64,000 bases of DNA from Marinilabiliaceae bacterium JC017 (GTDB lineage: Bacteria; Bacteroidota; Bacteroidia; Bacteroidales; Marinilabiliaceae), in the NCBI GenBank assembly GCA_004296775.1, contig RHGE01000021.1, forward strand, positions 1-64,000, written 5' to 3'. Every line of letters starts with the position of its first letter. Position 1 is the stretch's first letter. Shown here one piece after another: positions 27,427 through 54,432 of this stretch. Made by a program: the position numbers and the translations under genes. The notes under the pieces were generated by a model that made no database searches, had not been told where the DNA came from, and was given only the letters and a program-made list of their open reading frames with translations.

Positions 27427-30400
27427 ATGAAACAATCTTTACTTTTAACATTGGCTTTATTTTTAAGCCTCACAGGCCTTTTAAAAGCCCAGGAACCTGC
27501 CATTACCATGACAACAGCGAAGGATATTGGTTCTCTTTGTCGCATTGTATTAAATGCCAATGCGGACAATACCAAAATCCAGGTGGACTTTGGCGATGGA
27601 AAGTTAAATACAAGAACTATTGGAGAAGCCTCTACTACCCTTTATATTACTGTAGGAGAAACACAAACCATTACCATTTACGGAGATGGTATAACTCAAC
27701 TTCGATGTGATAACAGGTCAATCACCAGTTTAGATGTATCTAACTGCACGACACTAAAATCCCTTATATGCTTCGACAACCAACTTTCCAGCTTGGATAT
27801 ATCGAAAAACACAGCCTTAGAAGGATTATATTGCAGAAACAATCAAATTTCCAGTTTAATTGTATCAAACAACCCGGCGTTGACCGATCTTTCTTGTTCC
27901 AATAACAATCTCACCTTTGCAACTTTACCAATTAAGCAATCCACATGGAGTGATTATAGTTATACAGGCCAAAAGAGAGTTACCATTCCCGAAACTATCA
28001 CCACCAAAAACACAGTAGACTTAAGCAGTCAATACAACATCAGCGATAACATTACTTCTTACGTTTGGAAAAAAGAAAGTGGTGATGCTCTTATAGAAAA
28101 CACGGATTACACCATCAAAAATGGCGTAACCACTTTCATGAAAAGCCAGACTGAAAAGGTATATTGTGAAATGGCAAATGCCACTTTCCCGAAATTCACC
28201 GGTACTAGAAAGCTTAAAACCTCTCTTGTGACCATCATGGAGGCGGAAAAACCTGCTATTACCATGACAACAGCCATGGATATTAACTCTGATTTTTCTT
28301 TTGGTCTAAAAGCCAATACAGACAATACTAAAATCCAGGTGGATTTTGGCGATGGACAAAAAGTTGAGAAAACCATTGGGACTAATAATAGTACTATTAG
28401 CGGCACGCTGGCAACATCGCAAACTGTTAAAGTTTATGGAGAGGACATTACATATTTTGTTTGTATCAACAAACAACTCACTAAACTGGATGTGTCCAAT
28501 AACCCAAAACTAACTTTTCTCAACTGTAACTGTAATCAACTCACTAAACTGGACCTGTCAAAGAACGCATTTTTGACCACTCTTAAATGTAATGAGAATG
28601 ATCTCACTATGCTTAATGTGTCAAACTGCAAAGAATTGACCGAGCTATATTGCGGTTCAAACCAACTCGCTAAGTTAGATGTGTCTAACTGCAAAGAATT
28701 AACCAAGCTAAATTGTAATCACAACTATCTCACCAGTTTGGATGTAAAAAATAATACTGCATTAACCTTTCTTAACTGCTACGCCAACCAACTTACCAGT
28801 TTGGATCTGACATACAATACCAGATTGGATGTCCCTTGTTGCGAGAACAACAAATTAACTTTTGCCACCTTGCCTCTTCCAAGCCCCAAATGGCCATATT
28901 ACTCCTATGCCCCTCAAGCAAACATTACCATACCCGAAATCATCACCACCAATAACACAGTAGACTTAAGCAGTCAATACAACATCAGCGATAACATTAC
29001 TTCTTACGTTTGGAAAAAAGAAAGTGGTGATGCTCTTATAGAAAACACGGATTACACCATCAAAAATGGCGTAACCACTTTCATGAAGAGCCAGACTGAA
29101 AAGGTATATTGTGAAATGACAAATGCCTCTTTCCCGAATTTCACCGGTACTAAAAAGCTTAAAACCTCTCTTGTGACCATCATGGAGGCGGAAAAACCTG
29201 CCATTACCATGACAACAGCCATGGCTATTAACTCTGATTTTTCTTTTACATTAAAAGCCAATGCAAACAATACTAAAATCCAGGTGGATTTTGGCGATGG
29301 CAATAAAGTTGAGAAAACCATTGGTATTTTTAGTAGTACTATTAGCGGCACGCTGGCAACATCGCAAACTGTTAGAATTTATGGAGAGGGTATTACTTAT
29401 TTTTCTTGTTATGACAAACAACTCACCGCACTGGATGTGTCAAATAGCACAAAACTGACTACACTCAGCTGTAATAAAAACCAACTCACTAAACTGGATG
29501 TGTCAAAAAATACAAAGTTGACCAAGCTCTACTGTAATACCAACCAACTCACTACACTCAACCTGTCAAATAACACATTATTGACCAACCTTCAATGTAA
29601 TGAGAATGATCTCAATATGCTGAATGTGTCAAACTGCAAGGAGTTAATCATTCTATTTTGCGATTCAAACCAACTCTCTACACTGAATGTATCAATTTCA
29701 ACAAAACTGACCTGCCTCCATTGTAATAACAACCAGCTCGTTTCGCTAAATATATCAAATAACACATTATTAAAAGAACTTAATTGTAGTTGGAATTCAC
29801 TTTCCACGTTGAATATATCAACTTGTACTAAGCTAACCACATTTTATTGCTCGGAAAATCAACTCGCCACACTGGATGTATCAAACAATAAAGAGTTGCT
29901 CAATTTTCACTGCTCCTCAAATAAACTAACTACACTAAATGTATCGAACAACAAGATGTTGAAAAATTTTATTTGTAGTTCAAACAATCTTACCACACTG
30001 GATGTATCCGAAAATAAAGCATTGAATTTATTGTATTGCTCAGATAACAAGTTAACATTTGCCACATTGCCACATATACAATCTACTTGTGATATGTATA
30101 GTTACCATCCACAACAGGAAATGACCATTCCGGAAACCATCACTACCAGTAATACTGTAGACTTAAGCAGTCAATACAACATCAGCGATAACATTACAAC
30201 TTACCTTTGGAAAAAAGAAAGCGGTGATGCTCTTATAGAAAATACGGATTACACCATTAAAAATGGCGTAACTACTTTCCTGAAAAGCCAGACCGAACCG
30301 GTATATTGTGCAATGACCAATAAAACTTTCAATAGTCTAAATGAAAGAAATCCGTTAAAAACAACCCTAATCAACGTAACAGTTTCAACCGCCATTGAAA

Positions 30401-30624
30401 AAGAAACTGCTCAGCAGGTAAAAATATATTCCAACAACAAAACCCTGTATGTGAACCTGGAGAATGATGGCCAGCTTTCGGTATACGACATCAGTGGACG
30501 CATGATTAAATCTGCACCGGTTTACAGGGGCAGCAACATCATTGAATTAACTAAAGAGGGTATCTACGTGGTACGCGTCTTAATCAATGGACAAATCATT
30601 ACCGAAAAAGTAATGGTTAAATAA
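27427..30624 (+). CDS. Large leucine-rich-repeat surface protein with type IX secretion C-terminal domain
   Basis: 1065 residues with signal peptide (to KAQ, 20-22). Three modules start with PAITMTTA at residues ~24, ~275 and ~590. Each has a PKD-like part (KIQVDFGDG), a run of ~21-residue leucine-rich repeats (LTKLDVSNNxxLTxLxCNxNQ), then a conserved beta domain (TVDLSSQYNISDNITSYVWK to YCEM). LRR number rises from about 3 to 6 to 12 across modules. The last ~80 residues (VKIYSNNKTLYVNL, QLSVYDISGRMIK, GIYVVRVLINGQIITEKVMVK) are a type IX secretion sorting domain, so it is probably secreted and attached to the cell surface. Near-identical 945-bp repeats at DNA level invite recombination. Probably binding or adhesion. 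Confidence 0.88.
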   Translation: MKQSLLLTLALFLSLTGLLKAQEPAITMTTAKDIGSLCRIVLNANADNTKIQVDFGDGKLNTRTIGEASTTLYITVGETQTITIYGDGITQLRCDNRSITSLDVSNCTTLKSLICFDNQLSSLDISKNTALEGLYCRNNQISSLIVSNNPALTDLSCSNNNLTFATLPIKQSTWSDYSYTGQKRVTIPETITTKNTVDLSSQYNISDNITSYVWKKESGDALIENTDYTIKNGVTTFMKSQTEKVYCEMANATFPKFTGTRKLKTSLVTIMEAEKPAITMTTAMDINSDFSFGLKANTDNTKIQVDFGDGQKVEKTIGTNNSTISGTLATSQTVKVYGEDITYFVCINKQLTKLDVSNNPKLTFLNCNCNQLTKLDLSKNAFLTTLKCNENDLTMLNVSNCKELTELYCGSNQLAKLDVSNCKELTKLNCNHNYLTSLDVKNNTALTFLNCYANQLTSLDLTYNTRLDVPCCENNKLTFATLPLPSPKWPYYSYAPQANITIPEIITTNNTVDLSSQYNISDNITSYVWKKESGDALIENTDYTIKNGVTTFMKSQTEKVYCEMTNASFPNFTGTKKLKTSLVTIMEAEKPAITMTTAMAINSDFSFTLKANANNTKIQVDFGDGNKVEKTIGIFSSTISGTLATSQTVRIYGEGITYFSCYDKQLTALDVSNSTKLTTLSCNKNQLTKLDVSKNTKLTKLYCNTNQLTTLNLSNNTLLTNLQCNENDLNMLNVSNCKELIILFCDSNQLSTLNVSISTKLTCLHCNNNQLVSLNISNNTLLKELNCSWNSLSTLNISTCTKLTTFYCSENQLATLDVSNNKELLNFHCSSNKLTTLNVSNNKMLKNFICSSNNLTTLDVSENKALNLLYCSDNKLTFATLPHIQSTCDMYSYHPQQEMTIPETITTSNTVDLSSQYNISDNITTYLWKKESGDALIENTDYTIKNGVTTFLKSQTEPVYCAMTNKTFNSLNERNPLKTTLINVTVSTAIEKETAQQVKIYSNNKTLYVNLENDGQLSVYDISGRMIKSAPVYRGSNIIELTKEGIYVVRVLINGQIITEKVMVK
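28012..29385 (+). repeat. Tandem 945-bp internal repeat of the LRR protein gene
   Basis: The stretch from ACAGTAGACTTAAGCAGTC at 28012 through the next module start recurs from 28957 with an exact offset of 945 bp (315 codons) and only scattered differences for about 430 bp. A third partial copy of the domain begins near 30154. Because 945 is a multiple of three, unequal exchange would add or remove one module without changing frame. Confidence 0.8.
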
Positions 30625-32112: not shown

Positions 32113-32407
32113 AGAATAATTTGCTTTGCCCACGAAGATACATTTTTCAGACAACCGCACCGGGAACTGATCTTCTATTTCATTTTCTTCTCTTCTTTTT
32201 AGCTTCAATTTCCTCCATGAAATAAACCTATAACTCTCATGCTTATTTGTAAATCAATAATCTTTCTCTTTTTTTCCATATCGATTACAATCAACCTGTT
32301 AAAACTTATTCGATATAATATTAAAACTTGACCAGCCTCGAATTGAATACCACTTTTTATATCTACAAATCCATTAGATTATCATTAGTAAGCGCTTCTC
32401 CACCTCT

Positions 32408-32660
32408 AGTAACCTCATTAAAGTCTCTAGCAACCTCTCTAATGCCTTTAGTGACCTCTTTGAAGTCTCTAGCAACCTCTCTGATGTCGTTAGTGACCTC
32501 TTTGATGTCTCCAGCACCCTCTCTGATGTCGTTAGTGACCTCTTTGAAGTCTCCAGCAACCTCTCTGATGCCTTTAGTGACCTCTTTGAAGTCTCTAGCA
32601 ACCGCTCTGCAGTCTTTAGTGACCTCTTTGCAGCCTTTAGTAACCTCGTTGCATCATTTT
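32408..32660. repeat. Phased tandem repeat array, 12 units of 21 bp
   Basis: Units begin at 32408, 32429, 32450, 32471, 32492, 32513, 32534, 32555, 32576, 32597, 32618 and 32639, each exactly 21 bp. Two types alternate, AGTGACCTCTTTGAAGTCTC-like and AGCAACCTCTCTGATGCCTT-like, so the higher-order unit is 42 bp. Twenty-one bp equals two helical turns, so a protein could bind one face. As 21 is divisible by three, both strands stay open and give heptad-like peptides, but starts are TTG only and I do not think they are coded. The array ends about 340 bp before the ATG of a helical protein gene. The remainder of 32113-32999 is AT-rich and shows no gene. Confidence 0.9.
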
Positions 32661-32999
32661 AAATACATCGACAAATATTTCTGCTCATTTCTTTATCACT
32701 ATATCATTCTAACTAAACCCATCTTTATCATCACTTAAAATCATTCATGAATCCTACTTACTAAACTACCCTATGCCGATATTCAATATACAATAATTTA
32801 TTTAATCAAATATATAGTGCCATTAACTGCTCAAAAAGAATAATTCGTCAATCCCAACACTACCATCTATTTACTTTCTCATTAAAGCATTCTAATTTTA
32901 CTTATAATAATGCGCATCACAATAATTGAAAATTATTTACCGGCTACAAAACTGGCTTTATTTTAAAAAAAGAAATTATTAACCTTAAAATCATTGTCT

Positions 33000-33719
33000 A
33001 TGAAATTAATCTTTTCTTTTGCATATTCTGAATTATTTCAGCGTTCTGATAATTTAAATCCTATCCTGGTACGAGACATATCCAAATTTGAAGCCTTTGG
33101 ATATTCGCCCACAACACCCGAAGATCTAAAAATTCAGACCAATGTTTTACGTGAAATACCCACGGATGATTTTTGGGAAGGCCAACAAATGCTGAAAACC
33201 AGTGCTAAAAACAAAGCAAGAGATGATTTAGATGGTTTTTTACAAAACCTGAAACATCGTATTAGCCGATGTCTGGACACCGATTCAGTTGACTACAGGC
33301 TATTTCGTTTCAACCGCATGGCACGTATTAATGACCATGAAGCAATTGTTTTTGCCAAGAATACTATTAAATCGGCAGAATCAATGGCTACCGCATTGGA
33401 ACCTGCAAAAGTAACCGCTGAATTGTTGCTAGAAATAAAAAACAGTGCTGACAATTTAGATCAGTTATTAGATGAGCAGGTTGAAATGGAAAAAACCCGC
33501 ATCCGCAAACAAGCCGAGCGTATTCAACTGGCTAACGAATTGTACCGTAAAATCAGTGACATTTGCCAAACCGGCAAAGTGATCTGGAAAGGAAAAAATG
33601 ATACTTACTATGATGACTATGTGATTTACGGTTCATCCAAATCGAATTTACAAACTATCGAAGAGGAGAATTCTCCTGTTGAAGAAGAAAATACAACAGC
33701 CACACCATCAGAAGAATAA
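33000..33719 (+). CDS. Helical protein of ~240 residues, function unknown (DUF6261-like in layout)
   Basis: 239 residues from the ATG at 33000; the frame could start at an upstream TTG but ATG MKLIFSFAYSELF is preferable. No signal or membrane segment. Almost wholly alpha-helical: helices around LKIQTNVLREIP, ARDDLDGFLQNLKHRISRCL, HEAIVFAKNTIKSAESMATAL, ELLLEIKNSADNLDQLLDEQ and a long charged one EMEKTRIRKQAERIQLANEL, then KVIWKGKNDTYYDDYVIYG and an acidic Glu/Thr-rich tail. The size, helical make-up and the upstream tandem array resemble the DUF6261-type gene at 49.2 kb, but sequence identity is too low to claim homology by eye. I do not recognise a function. Confidence 0.65.
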   Translation: MKLIFSFAYSELFQRSDNLNPILVRDISKFEAFGYSPTTPEDLKIQTNVLREIPTDDFWEGQQMLKTSAKNKARDDLDGFLQNLKHRISRCLDTDSVDYRLFRFNRMARINDHEAIVFAKNTIKSAESMATALEPAKVTAELLLEIKNSADNLDQLLDEQVEMEKTRIRKQAERIQLANELYRKISDICQTGKVIWKGKNDTYYDDYVIYGSSKSNLQTIEEENSPVEEENTTATPSEE

Positions 33720-48865: not shown

Positions 48866-49190
48866 AATCCTGTTCTAAAATACAGCTATTATTACCACCA
48901 TTGGTATAAGTGTGCAAAGGTATTGGGATTTGAGAATGTTTAATTATTTGATTTGTTAATTTTCAATAAAAACAGGGAAGAGAATAGAGGTTAGAGGGTG
49001 GAAGATGAAAGTTGGAGGATAGAGGATAGAAGTTAGTGATTAGTGGATAGAAGGGTTTGAATAGGTTAACTTGGAAACTTAGGAATACAAAGTGGCTTGC
49101 TACTTCTATCACAAAGGCCCTGTTGATAAAAGTATCAACAAGGCCTTTTCCCATTATTAACCAACTTATACTTAACTTGATTCCCGTATT
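48866..49190. other. Spacer with purine-rich tract and hairpin
   Basis: Bases 48974-49055 are a purine-rich low-complexity run of GAGGATAGAAGTTAG-like words. AAAGGCCCTGTTGATA (49113-49128) pairs with TATCAACAAGGCCTTT (49133-49148), one mismatch, just after the stop of the DUF6261-type gene; T run lies on the plus side only. No gene. Confidence 0.55.
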
Positions 49191-49925: not shown

Positions 49926-50247
49926 GTTTTTCGGTTTAAAGTTAAAATTCAATTTCTACATGAATTTAACATTTAATTTTTATCAAACGAATGATATTAA
50001 CCTATCCTACTTAACTAATCATTACCAGAAAAAACAGGAATCACGCTAAAACACTACCTTAAAAGCCCATTACACTCTTTTTATTTATCTATAAAATTTA
50101 TAATCATTCCAAATTTCAACAAATAGTTGACTTTTAAATAAATCCAATTTCAACAAAACTCCAGTAATACAATGGCTGTTAACACCAAATTTAGCTTCCT
50201 GGCTAAATGCTCTATTGCTTCCTTTTTTCCGAAAGAATGAAAACAGT

Positions 50248-50755
50248 GCGCAGAGTTGCAACAGGCTTTCCGTTGGGACGGGAACGATGCGTAGAACTAC
50301 AACAGGGATTCCATTGGAACGGGAACAATGCACAGAGTTGTATCAGGCATTCTGTTGGGACGGGAACGGTGCGCAGAATTGCAACAAGCTTTCCGTTGGG
50401 ACAGAAAGGGTGCGCAAAGTTGCAACAGGCTTTCCGTTGGGAAGGGAAAGGTGCGCAGAATTGCAACAAGCTTTCCGTTGGGACAGAAAGGGTGCGCAGA
50501 GTTGCAACAGCCTTTTCGTTAGAACAGGAAAGGTGCGCAGAATTGCAACAACCTTTCCGTTAGAACAGGAATGGCGCACAGAATTGCTACAGGCATTCTG
50601 TTGGGACGGGAAGGGTGTGCAGAACTACAACAGGGATTCCATTGGAACGGGAACAATGCACAGATTTGCATCAGGCTTTCCGTTAAAACAGGAACGGTGC
50701 GCAGATTTGCAACAGGCATTCCGTTGGGACGGGAATGGTGTGCAGTGTTACTCTC
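50248..50755. repeat. Tandem repeat array, about 12 units of 41 bp
   Basis: Unit starts (GCGCAG or variant) lie at 50248, 50289, 50330, 50371, 50412, 50453, 50494, 50535, 50576, 50617, 50658, 50699 and 50740, each exactly 41 bp apart. Units carry the self-complementary GTTGCAAC and, in many, CCGT-TGGG-ACGG, a small hairpin. Units differ by a few bases but never in length. As 41 is not a multiple of three, every frame of both strands stays open, so the long reading frames here are artefacts. The array ends about 30 bp before the next gene. The flank 49926-50247 is AT-rich and shows no gene. Confidence 0.92.
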
Positions 50756-54185: not shown

Positions 54186-54432
54186 CTGTATGTTTTTTAG
54201 ATAAGAGACTATTAGATGATAGATCTTGAGACATTAGACATTTAGATAAGAGATATTGAGATGATAGATTTATAGATAATAGATCTTGAGATAAGAGAAA
54301 CTTAATATTTAGTATCAAGATTCAAGACGTAAGACTTTGAACACAGAGTTCTTCTTTATTAATCATCGTCCTGTGTGTTAAATTTCCTTATCATGGACGT
54401 TTCATCACATTAATCGCTCGCTCCTCAAAAAT
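54186..54432. repeat. Leader with degenerate AGATAAGAGA words
   Basis: Bases 54190-54300 repeat words such as GATAATAGATCTTGAGATAA with variations, and 54338-54382 carry the third copy of the ACACAGAGTTCTTC repeat. Related words occur near 51040-51070 and 61012-61035. No gene. Confidence 0.6.

Follow-up and report, generated by a model that had tools for sequence, protein, structure and literature searches.

Tandem arrays phased to the DNA helix are paired with genes for two groups of helical proteins in the Marinilabiliaceae and some relatives

Iteron or centromere systems such as pSK1 Par and R388 StbA pair a single DNA-binding protein, which has a recognised DNA-binding domain, with a phased repeat array that precedes the protein's gene; both are plasmid-borne. 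In type III toxin-antitoxin loci the array also adjoins the gene, and unit lengths are near 40 nt. The array of these loci (ToxIN) is an RNA antitoxin and their one protein an endoribonuclease, as set out in the available part of the source (PMC8860590). In REPIN/RAYT systems a helper gene is flanked by its own dispersed short extragenic palindromic repeats (REPs), the helper (RAYT) being a Y1 transposase and the REPs occurring as singlets, doublets and clusters, with several distinct helpers possible in one genome (available passages of PMC3116915). Within the Bacteroidota, the minisatellite-MITE BrickBuilt has 19 occurrences in the genome of Porphyromonas gingivalis, as intergenic tandem arrays of one unit sequence of about two turns (23 nt) with a leader and a tail, and the available part of that report names no cognate gene (PMC4596501). 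TAACTGA direct repeats of Beggiatoaceae, Cyanobacteria and five Bacteroidetes are likewise intergenic tandem repeats for which a repeat-binding protein has been proposed; their single unit is 7 bp long, and in the main genome most of them lie immediately before start codons, and the passages available describe no linked gene family (PMC4679880).

The arrays described here are paired with genes for helical proteins which, by sequence comparison, form two groups without convincing relation to each other: DUF6261, with units of ~41–43 bp, and an unnamed family, one branch of which has diverged, with units of 21 bp. As in REPIN/RAYT, a repeat family flanks a gene and is dispersed in extragenic space; however, the helical proteins match no transposase above cut-off, and the repeats form tandem arrays with a spacing of helical turns. 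BrickBuilt shares the intergenic tandem arrangement and the two-turn unit, whereas here many different units are each tied to a gene of the two protein groups. The array stands directly beside the gene as in type III loci, but orphan arrays exist, no clear RNA signature was obtained, and no ToxN-like endoribonuclease family was among the Pfam, NCBIfam and PADLOC matches. Each of these three departs from the present arrays in a defining feature or has no such pairing. By analogy, the single-protein plasmid partition systems would be the nearest functional model, having helically phased direct or inverted repeats beside the gene, in contrast to which the present contigs look chromosomal, there are many pairs per genome, arrays are dispersed and no DNA-binding domain was recognised by sequence. 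We know of no kind in which arrays that are gene-linked, phased to the helix and specific to a locus occur together with dispersed copies, and the pairs could be a new kind or, more cautiously, a variant of iteron-type protein/site pairs. Among the papers listed from the open-access literature on such repeats, none concerns this pairing, as judged from titles and the opening of abstracts.

The window (the whole stretch of 64,000 bp analysed) carries two tandem arrays and three genes (Table 1), which TRF and ORF prediction placed where an earlier sequence-only reading had them, apart from array ends that were off by 5–10 bp. The genes and their proteins are called here by position (33-kb, 39-kb and 49-kb), and the unnamed family of the 33-kb protein is called family A. 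The 21-bp array was assigned to the 33-kb gene as its site array; the gap between array and ATG is ~350 bp for this gene and ~317 bp for the 49-kb gene. As that reading had also noted, the 39-kb gene has no nearby array, neither TRF nor lag scan detecting one in ~1.3 kb upstream. The 49-kb and 39-kb proteins match PF19775 (DUF6261) with E 1.2e-27 (97.1 bits) and 6.5e-20 (72.1 bits), respectively, against a curated cut-off of 27 bits. For the 33-kb protein no Pfam family, DUF6261 included, scored above cut-off (best FAINT, E 0.089), and neither it nor family A has an NCBIfam match above cut-off. No ORF was matched by both family HMMs at E≤10, and a profile comparison of family A with DUF6261 reached 36% probability over 30 columns. 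By sequence the 33-kb protein is therefore not DUF6261, and its earlier description as DUF6261-like was dropped.

Table 1. Positions of the arrays and genes of the window.
Feature	Position	Strand	Evidence	Proposed role or remark
Tandem array, 21-bp unit, 42-bp higher order	32403..32651	.	TRF: 42-bp row, 5.8 copies, score 343	
Family A (33-kb) gene, predicted helical protein, 239 aa	33000..33719	+	ORF	Proposed reader of 21-bp direct repeats
Second DUF6261 (39-kb) gene of window, 245 aa	39486..40223	-	ORF + PF19775	Array upstream not detected
DUF6261 (49-kb) gene, 244 aa	49191..49925	-	ORF + PF19775	Proposed reader of 41-bp array
Tandem array, 41-bp unit	50242..50745	.	TRF: 12.3 copies, score 525	

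The own genome (6.65 Mb in 500 contigs) was found to hold 21 DUF6261 matches and 4 family A genes, those of the window counted in. TRF analysis of flanks of up to ~1.5 kb revealed a tandem array near all 4 family A genes and 16 of the 21 DUF6261 genes, window pairs included. Every family A gene has a 21-bp-based array 238–435 bp upstream. In DUF6261, 13 of the 21 genes have an upstream array with a period of 41, 42 or 82–85 bp at a distance of 141–775 bp, and three have a 41-bp array downstream; TRF detects none at the other five, of which one has no more than 674 bp of DNA upstream and two (L004 and L012) show weak 42-bp repeats by lag scan. The unit sequence varies by locus and the period near 21 bp or its multiples is kept. 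Arrays with a period of 20–22 or 40–43 bp and a TRF score of at least 100 numbered 13 (43 per Mb) in 304 kb of the own genome, the window included.

DUF6261 was present in 20 and family A in 10 of 61 genomes searched, the own genome included; DUF6261 is uncommon in the class, being found in 5 of 247 genomes drawn from it (own genome again included). After removal of identical proteins, and with an array defined by a TRF score of at least 80 within 1200 bp, 43 of 99 DUF6261 genes had an upstream array, 6 a downstream array only and 46 none, with 4 cut by contig ends, while the 25 family A genes divided into 10, 1, 12 and 2, respectively; a few TRF-positive rows, L013 and L039 for example, are doubtful, being simple repeats. 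Degenerate arrays were apparent among 47 TRF-negative DUF6261 loci with enough upstream DNA, as in 22 of them the best of 85 lags was a ~21-bp multiple with a score of at least 12, such multiples making up 19% of the lags tested. A strong 20–22 or 40–44-bp repeat within 800 bp upstream was found at 54 of 96 DUF6261 genes of the own and related genomes and at 10 of 22 family A genes, compared with 23 of 630 other own-genome genes (from 1.09 Mb), 14 of 180 genes next to DUF6261 loci in relatives (some of which share the array), and 3 of 115 and 0 of 135 genes in comparison genomes G031 and G036. With 16 control lags the counts were 2/96 (DUF6261), 1/22 (family A), 5/630 (other own-genome genes), 2/180 (neighbours), 3/115 (G031, the same as its figure above) and 0/135 (G036). 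The enrichment of arrays upstream of these genes in other genomes, which the sequence-only reading had put forward as its check, thus bore out the core of that reading (54/96 against 23/630). G031 has two DUF6261 genes (L057 and L098), neither with an array by TRF. Chance or background arrays were ruled out by the upstream enrichment together with the absence of arrays of TRF score of at least 100 in 200 kb each of G036 and G031. The pairing of gene and array is real and general.

In named genomes (Thermophagus xiamenensis, Anaerophaga thermohalophila, Marinilabilia rubra, two Marinifilum and two MAGs) an array lies 113–247 bp upstream in 9 of 12 DUF6261 loci. Seven of these 12 loci duplicate DNA already in the 99-gene sample, and among the five new ones four have an array. 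Seven of the nine units are 40–42 bp long, and the nearest units of L224 and L225 are 203 and 176 bp. Genome G018 was identified as T. xiamenensis by DNA identity at two loci, and this species belongs to the Marinilabiliaceae, the family of the window genome. Outside that family, a 41–42-bp repeat was present at 5 of 7 DUF6261 loci in three genomes, one of these repeats being weak. Six similar DUF6261 genes (L061, L063, L064, L104, L110, and L119) have no 41–42-bp array by lag scan and may represent an array-free state of the family. Common gene neighbours were observed for L104, L110 and L119. A search for a partner gene by clustering 250 neighbouring ORFs of 48 DUF6261 loci gave no family in more than 5 loci, and the most frequent one (5 of 48) looks by eye like an ABC-transporter ATPase.

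An unannotated gene of 218 aa has, 311 bp upstream, an own-genome array that goes with neither a DUF6261 nor a family A gene. Relatives of its product (41 matches in 21 of 41 genomes, the third set) are homologous to family A, with an hhalign probability of 96% (E 1.6e-9 as a single comparison, 195 columns) and HMM cross-hits down to 1e-8; no convincing similarity of the third set or family A to DUF6261 was seen. Thirty of the 41 matches were taken, of which 29 were testable, and 19 reached a lag score of at least 18 within 1200 bp upstream, these being judged to comprise 17 clear 21-bp cases and two of AT-rich noise. A gene found through its array therefore led to relatives with 17 clear arrays of their own, so that the gene predicted further arrays.

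The spacing of the units was examined in 249 units from 21 loci of three array families, in which 222 of 228 unit-to-unit steps are exactly 41 bp, with one step of 42 bp and five skips of 67–570 bp. This spacing is kept despite 1,758 departures from consensus in the same units, which are not independent, since repeats duplicate. The TRF indel rate gave poor separation from other arrays (mean 1.7% over 52 rows vs. 2.6% over 35 rows). When per-column conservation was tested for power at 4 cycles per unit (10.4 bp) against column shuffles, an oscillation of ~10.4 bp was obtained with z 9.1 over 37 arrays. Arrays beside DUF6261 gave z 8.4 (33 arrays), the value being 8.4, 5.9 and 4.8 at a minimum of 4, 5 and 6 units. 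A further 13 arrays, next to neither a DUF6261 nor a family A gene, gave z 9.0, some of these being related to arrays already used, one AT-rich and one from the third set; the cutting of 21-bp arrays at 42 bp favours even harmonics, yet the fourth exceeds the second, sixth and eighth. In 13 arrays of 21 bp the 10.5-bp term has z 4.7 and the 21-bp term z 4.0. The 10.4-bp term is modest in 42-bp DUF6261 arrays (z 3.2, vs. 3.5 for the 21-bp term). Tested singly, the window 41-bp family reaches significance (p 0.001), but three others fall short of it (p 0.17–0.80). Heptad-coding DNA would yield a similar period, and the key test is therefore provided by 41-bp arrays, in which the frame is shifted at each unit: 18 arrays of period 41 have a 10.4-bp term of z 8.3 and no 3-bp term. 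On this basis heptad-coding repeats were rejected for the 41-bp arrays, with caution kept for single arrays of 21 or 42 bp. The earlier suggestion that the periods are about multiples of the helical turn is supported by the ~10.4-bp oscillation, and the description of the arrays as helically phased double-stranded DNA sites is well supported.

Arrays related to the gene-linked ones are also scattered as orphans. The window 41-bp array has seven relatives elsewhere in the own genome (67–83% identity) and the 21-bp array one (C239:9222-9449, 76% identity), while the 42-bp array family beside two close DUF6261 paralogs occurs at 13 further places (23 matches, grouped by contig and position). Orphan relatives also exist for two gene-linked arrays of Thermophagus, seven for one and four for the other. 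When the own-genome sample was clustered, further groups of gene-linked and orphan arrays emerged, and some gene-linked arrays had no relative there; the orphan search took in part of the genes. The window array DNA was not found in 40 related genomes, and units thus appear to turn over fast. A restriction of orphans to the space between convergent genes was considered and rejected: it held for 5 of 7 in the window 41-bp family, but for 6 of 24 orphan rows more widely, compared with 61 of 423 gaps (a sample from which simple-sequence, coding and other-period arrays were dropped by hand, with 38 of 63 kept, 32 of these 38 placed between genes, and one array counted twice). In the 42-bp orphan family L142-L148, several arrays open with TCCGCG...CGCGAA-type dyads in 42-bp steps and continue with TTCTGAG...CTCAGAA-type dyads in 41-bp steps, both half-sites having changed symmetrically within one array.

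The reading preferred here is that each pair forms a module of one gene for a helical protein of ~220–260 aa and tandem double-stranded DNA sites whose spacing is an integral number of helical turns (~21 or ~41–42 bp), to which a probability of roughly 60% is given. About 20 gene-array pairs coexist in the own genome, mostly with distinct site sequences. Unit likeness tracks protein likeness, with a mean of 8.4 in 76 close pairs of either family against 6.7 in 150 sampled distant pairs (Mann-Whitney p 3e-4, the pairs not being independent). From this correlation, the association and the units shared by the orphans we infer that the neighbouring protein is the reader, both at the home array and at orphan arrays. 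The idea of a paired repeat-plus-protein system contained in the sequence-only reading is upheld in part: enrichment in other genomes and helical periods speak for it, whereas the 33-kb protein is not DUF6261 by sequence and the arrays are not only local. Points against the module reading are the members without an array by TRF (46 of 99 DUF6261 and 12 of 25 family A genes), the six similar DUF6261 genes that lack one by lag scan as well, the six with a downstream array only, the 10.4-bp signal, which is modest in 42-bp DUF6261 arrays and falls short of significance in three array families, and the window 41-bp unit, which as a whole has no dyad symmetry.

Under the module reading, a DUF6261 protein would bind as a two-fold symmetric dimer on dyads ~21 bp apart, and proteins of the 21-bp family would bind head to tail, one per two turns. 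Neighbours would then lie on one DNA face and could form a cooperative filament or cluster. Binding in cis at the home array would probably control the gene's own promoter, and binding at orphan arrays might regulate or organise other places on the chromosome. A broader proposal, held at a little under even odds, is that these are satellite-DNA systems in which two sequence-unrelated helical groups read their own phased arrays at home and at scattered places, the ~20 pairs of one genome, mostly of distinct specificity, serving as orthogonal, fast-diverging addresses that organise, silence or mark loci through a fold not yet known to bind DNA.

Among the protein models, that of a Thermophagus DUF6261 member is all-helical (pLDDT 84, pTM 0.50), and the one single-sequence model of the 33-kb protein was unusable (mean pLDDT 45). 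Sequence profiles found no solved PDB relative at E≤0.001; the DUF6261 model likewise had no PDB match at E≤0.001 and matched mostly generic helical bundles with a middling score (Foldseek, VIA; Z up to 8.9), which were given no weight. The most conserved DUF6261 residues include D70, F160, D74 and R73, and a C-terminal R230 occurs in 69% (49-kb numbering). Only weak, mutually unlike matches were obtained from PADLOC (E 0.001–0.008) and PHROGs (E at least 0.005), and the viral collections contained no relative of DUF6261 or family A. In the open-access full text available, DUF6261 appeared only in work on Streptococcus oralis. No DNA-binding domain was recognised by sequence in either family, and the median pI is 5.5 for DUF6261 (n=96) and 5.7 for family A (n=23), compared with 6.3 for 601 predicted own-genome proteins. 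Such acidic proteins, apparently without a recognised DNA-binding fold, are the main counter-argument to the reader role. They would also suit an alternative in which the arrays are phased sites read by another protein, such as a nucleoid-associated protein or global regulator, with the DUF6261 and family A genes as regulated targets, and the mostly upstream position of the arrays, where regulators bind, agrees with it. One global protein would, however, want one motif, while the units vary by locus; moreover, units are more alike when the proteins are, and orphans carry the unit of one particular gene-linked array. This alternative is considered unlikely.

Compared with base-shuffled units, 22 of 49 DUF6261 units are dyad-symmetric at z>2 (four at >5, mean z 1.9; a few loci contribute more than one array), and none of the 11 units of family A (21 bp), which are direct repeats. 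The window 41-bp unit is not dyad-symmetric overall (z -0.6) and has a local dyad inside. Conservation peaks lie half a turn (~5 bp) from dyad centres, with Rayleigh z of 5.3, 6.0 and 4.4 in 19, 14 and 11 arrays at three symmetry thresholds, a symmetric profile permitting little besides phase 0 or a half. Peaks at a half turn are the geometry of a dimer contacting successive major grooves.

The sequence-only reading had allowed for an array that supplies an RNA substrate. An RNA-level system, in which the array would give rise to repeat RNAs bound or processed by the protein as in type III toxin-antitoxin loci, finds support in the unit length near 41 and the position upstream of the gene, in the palindromes of many units, which could form hairpins, and in a wobble excess at two single column pairs of the window family (28 vs. 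6 and 26 vs. 5). Over the dyad-paired columns of 18 symmetric arrays, however, wobble and anti-wobble changes are similar (45 vs. 35, with 60 mismatches and 6 alternative pairs), as they are over the seven pairs of the window dyad (51 vs. 50), where there is almost no compensation. This lack of an overall wobble preference argues against RNA hairpins, as does the absence of Rfam matches in window positions 31000-52000. The 10.4-bp conservation is B-DNA-like, and some arrays lie downstream of the gene, as in the six DUF6261 genes noted above. An RNA substrate is accordingly not favoured, and the RNA-level system is rated slightly below the reading by another protein.

Similarly improbable is an origin as mobile minisatellites, i.e., MITE- or REP-like arrays that copy themselves, with the helical protein as dispersal helper. 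The dispersed copies with common units fit this, as does the observation by eye that 8 of 11 arrays of the 42-bp family start with the same dyad. A leader of ~60 bp is common to three orphans of the window 41-bp family (L136, L137, and L138) and another to two Thermophagus orphans (L271 and L275). A common starting phase in the Thermophagus array family is weak evidence, because the unit search itself fixes the phase. Flanks in the 42-bp family are mostly unlike, some segments of up to 265 bp being in common. Against mobility, no recombinase or transposase family in Pfam or NCBIfam matched either protein family above the curated cut-off (the 39-kb protein has a PHROGs transposase match of E 0.054), and the spacing and symmetry point to selection for occupancy by protein and not to copying alone. 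That the arrays are neutral minisatellites or heptad-coding repeats beside these genes by coincidence is considered very unlikely: 21 and 42 bp correspond to 7 and 14 codons and at least one frame is open throughout in 41 of 57 arrays, but 16 of the 57 have no open frame among the six, the enrichment greatly exceeds background, and the 41-bp arrays carry their 10.4-bp signal while shifting frame.

Should the pairing reflect binding, each genome of the Marinilabiliaceae and of some related bacteria would carry many matched pairs of protein and DNA array, with a specificity that shifts quickly while the spacing stays locked to the helix. It would also provide a function for DUF6261 and the unnamed family, and with it a new protein-DNA recognition fold. 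The pairs would then offer a natural collection of proteins with their matching sites, suited to learning a recognition code, and would present bacterial satellite DNA and its cognate reader in a form that can be tested.

Tandem repeats of other kinds were also observed. An ORF of 1065 aa in the window (27427-30624), leucine-rich-repeat-like by eye, has two internal stretches of 63-bp (21-codon) repeats at 28616-28735 and 29419-29633. Short AT-rich low-complexity arrays lie at 48979-49053 (21 bp) and 54196-54298 (15/30/45 bp) of the window, and simple arrays like these were found again elsewhere in the genome. Two arrays of 105 bp (5 x 21) in the own genome, L127:14042-14460 and L128:1935-2743, are 93% alike on opposite strands and have partly stop-free, heptad-like translations; neither has a DUF6261 or family A gene close by. 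Tandem tRNA genes are present in the own genome as five tRNA-Asp in a row at L122:11285-11782 and four tRNA-Lys in a row at L166:2999-3511.
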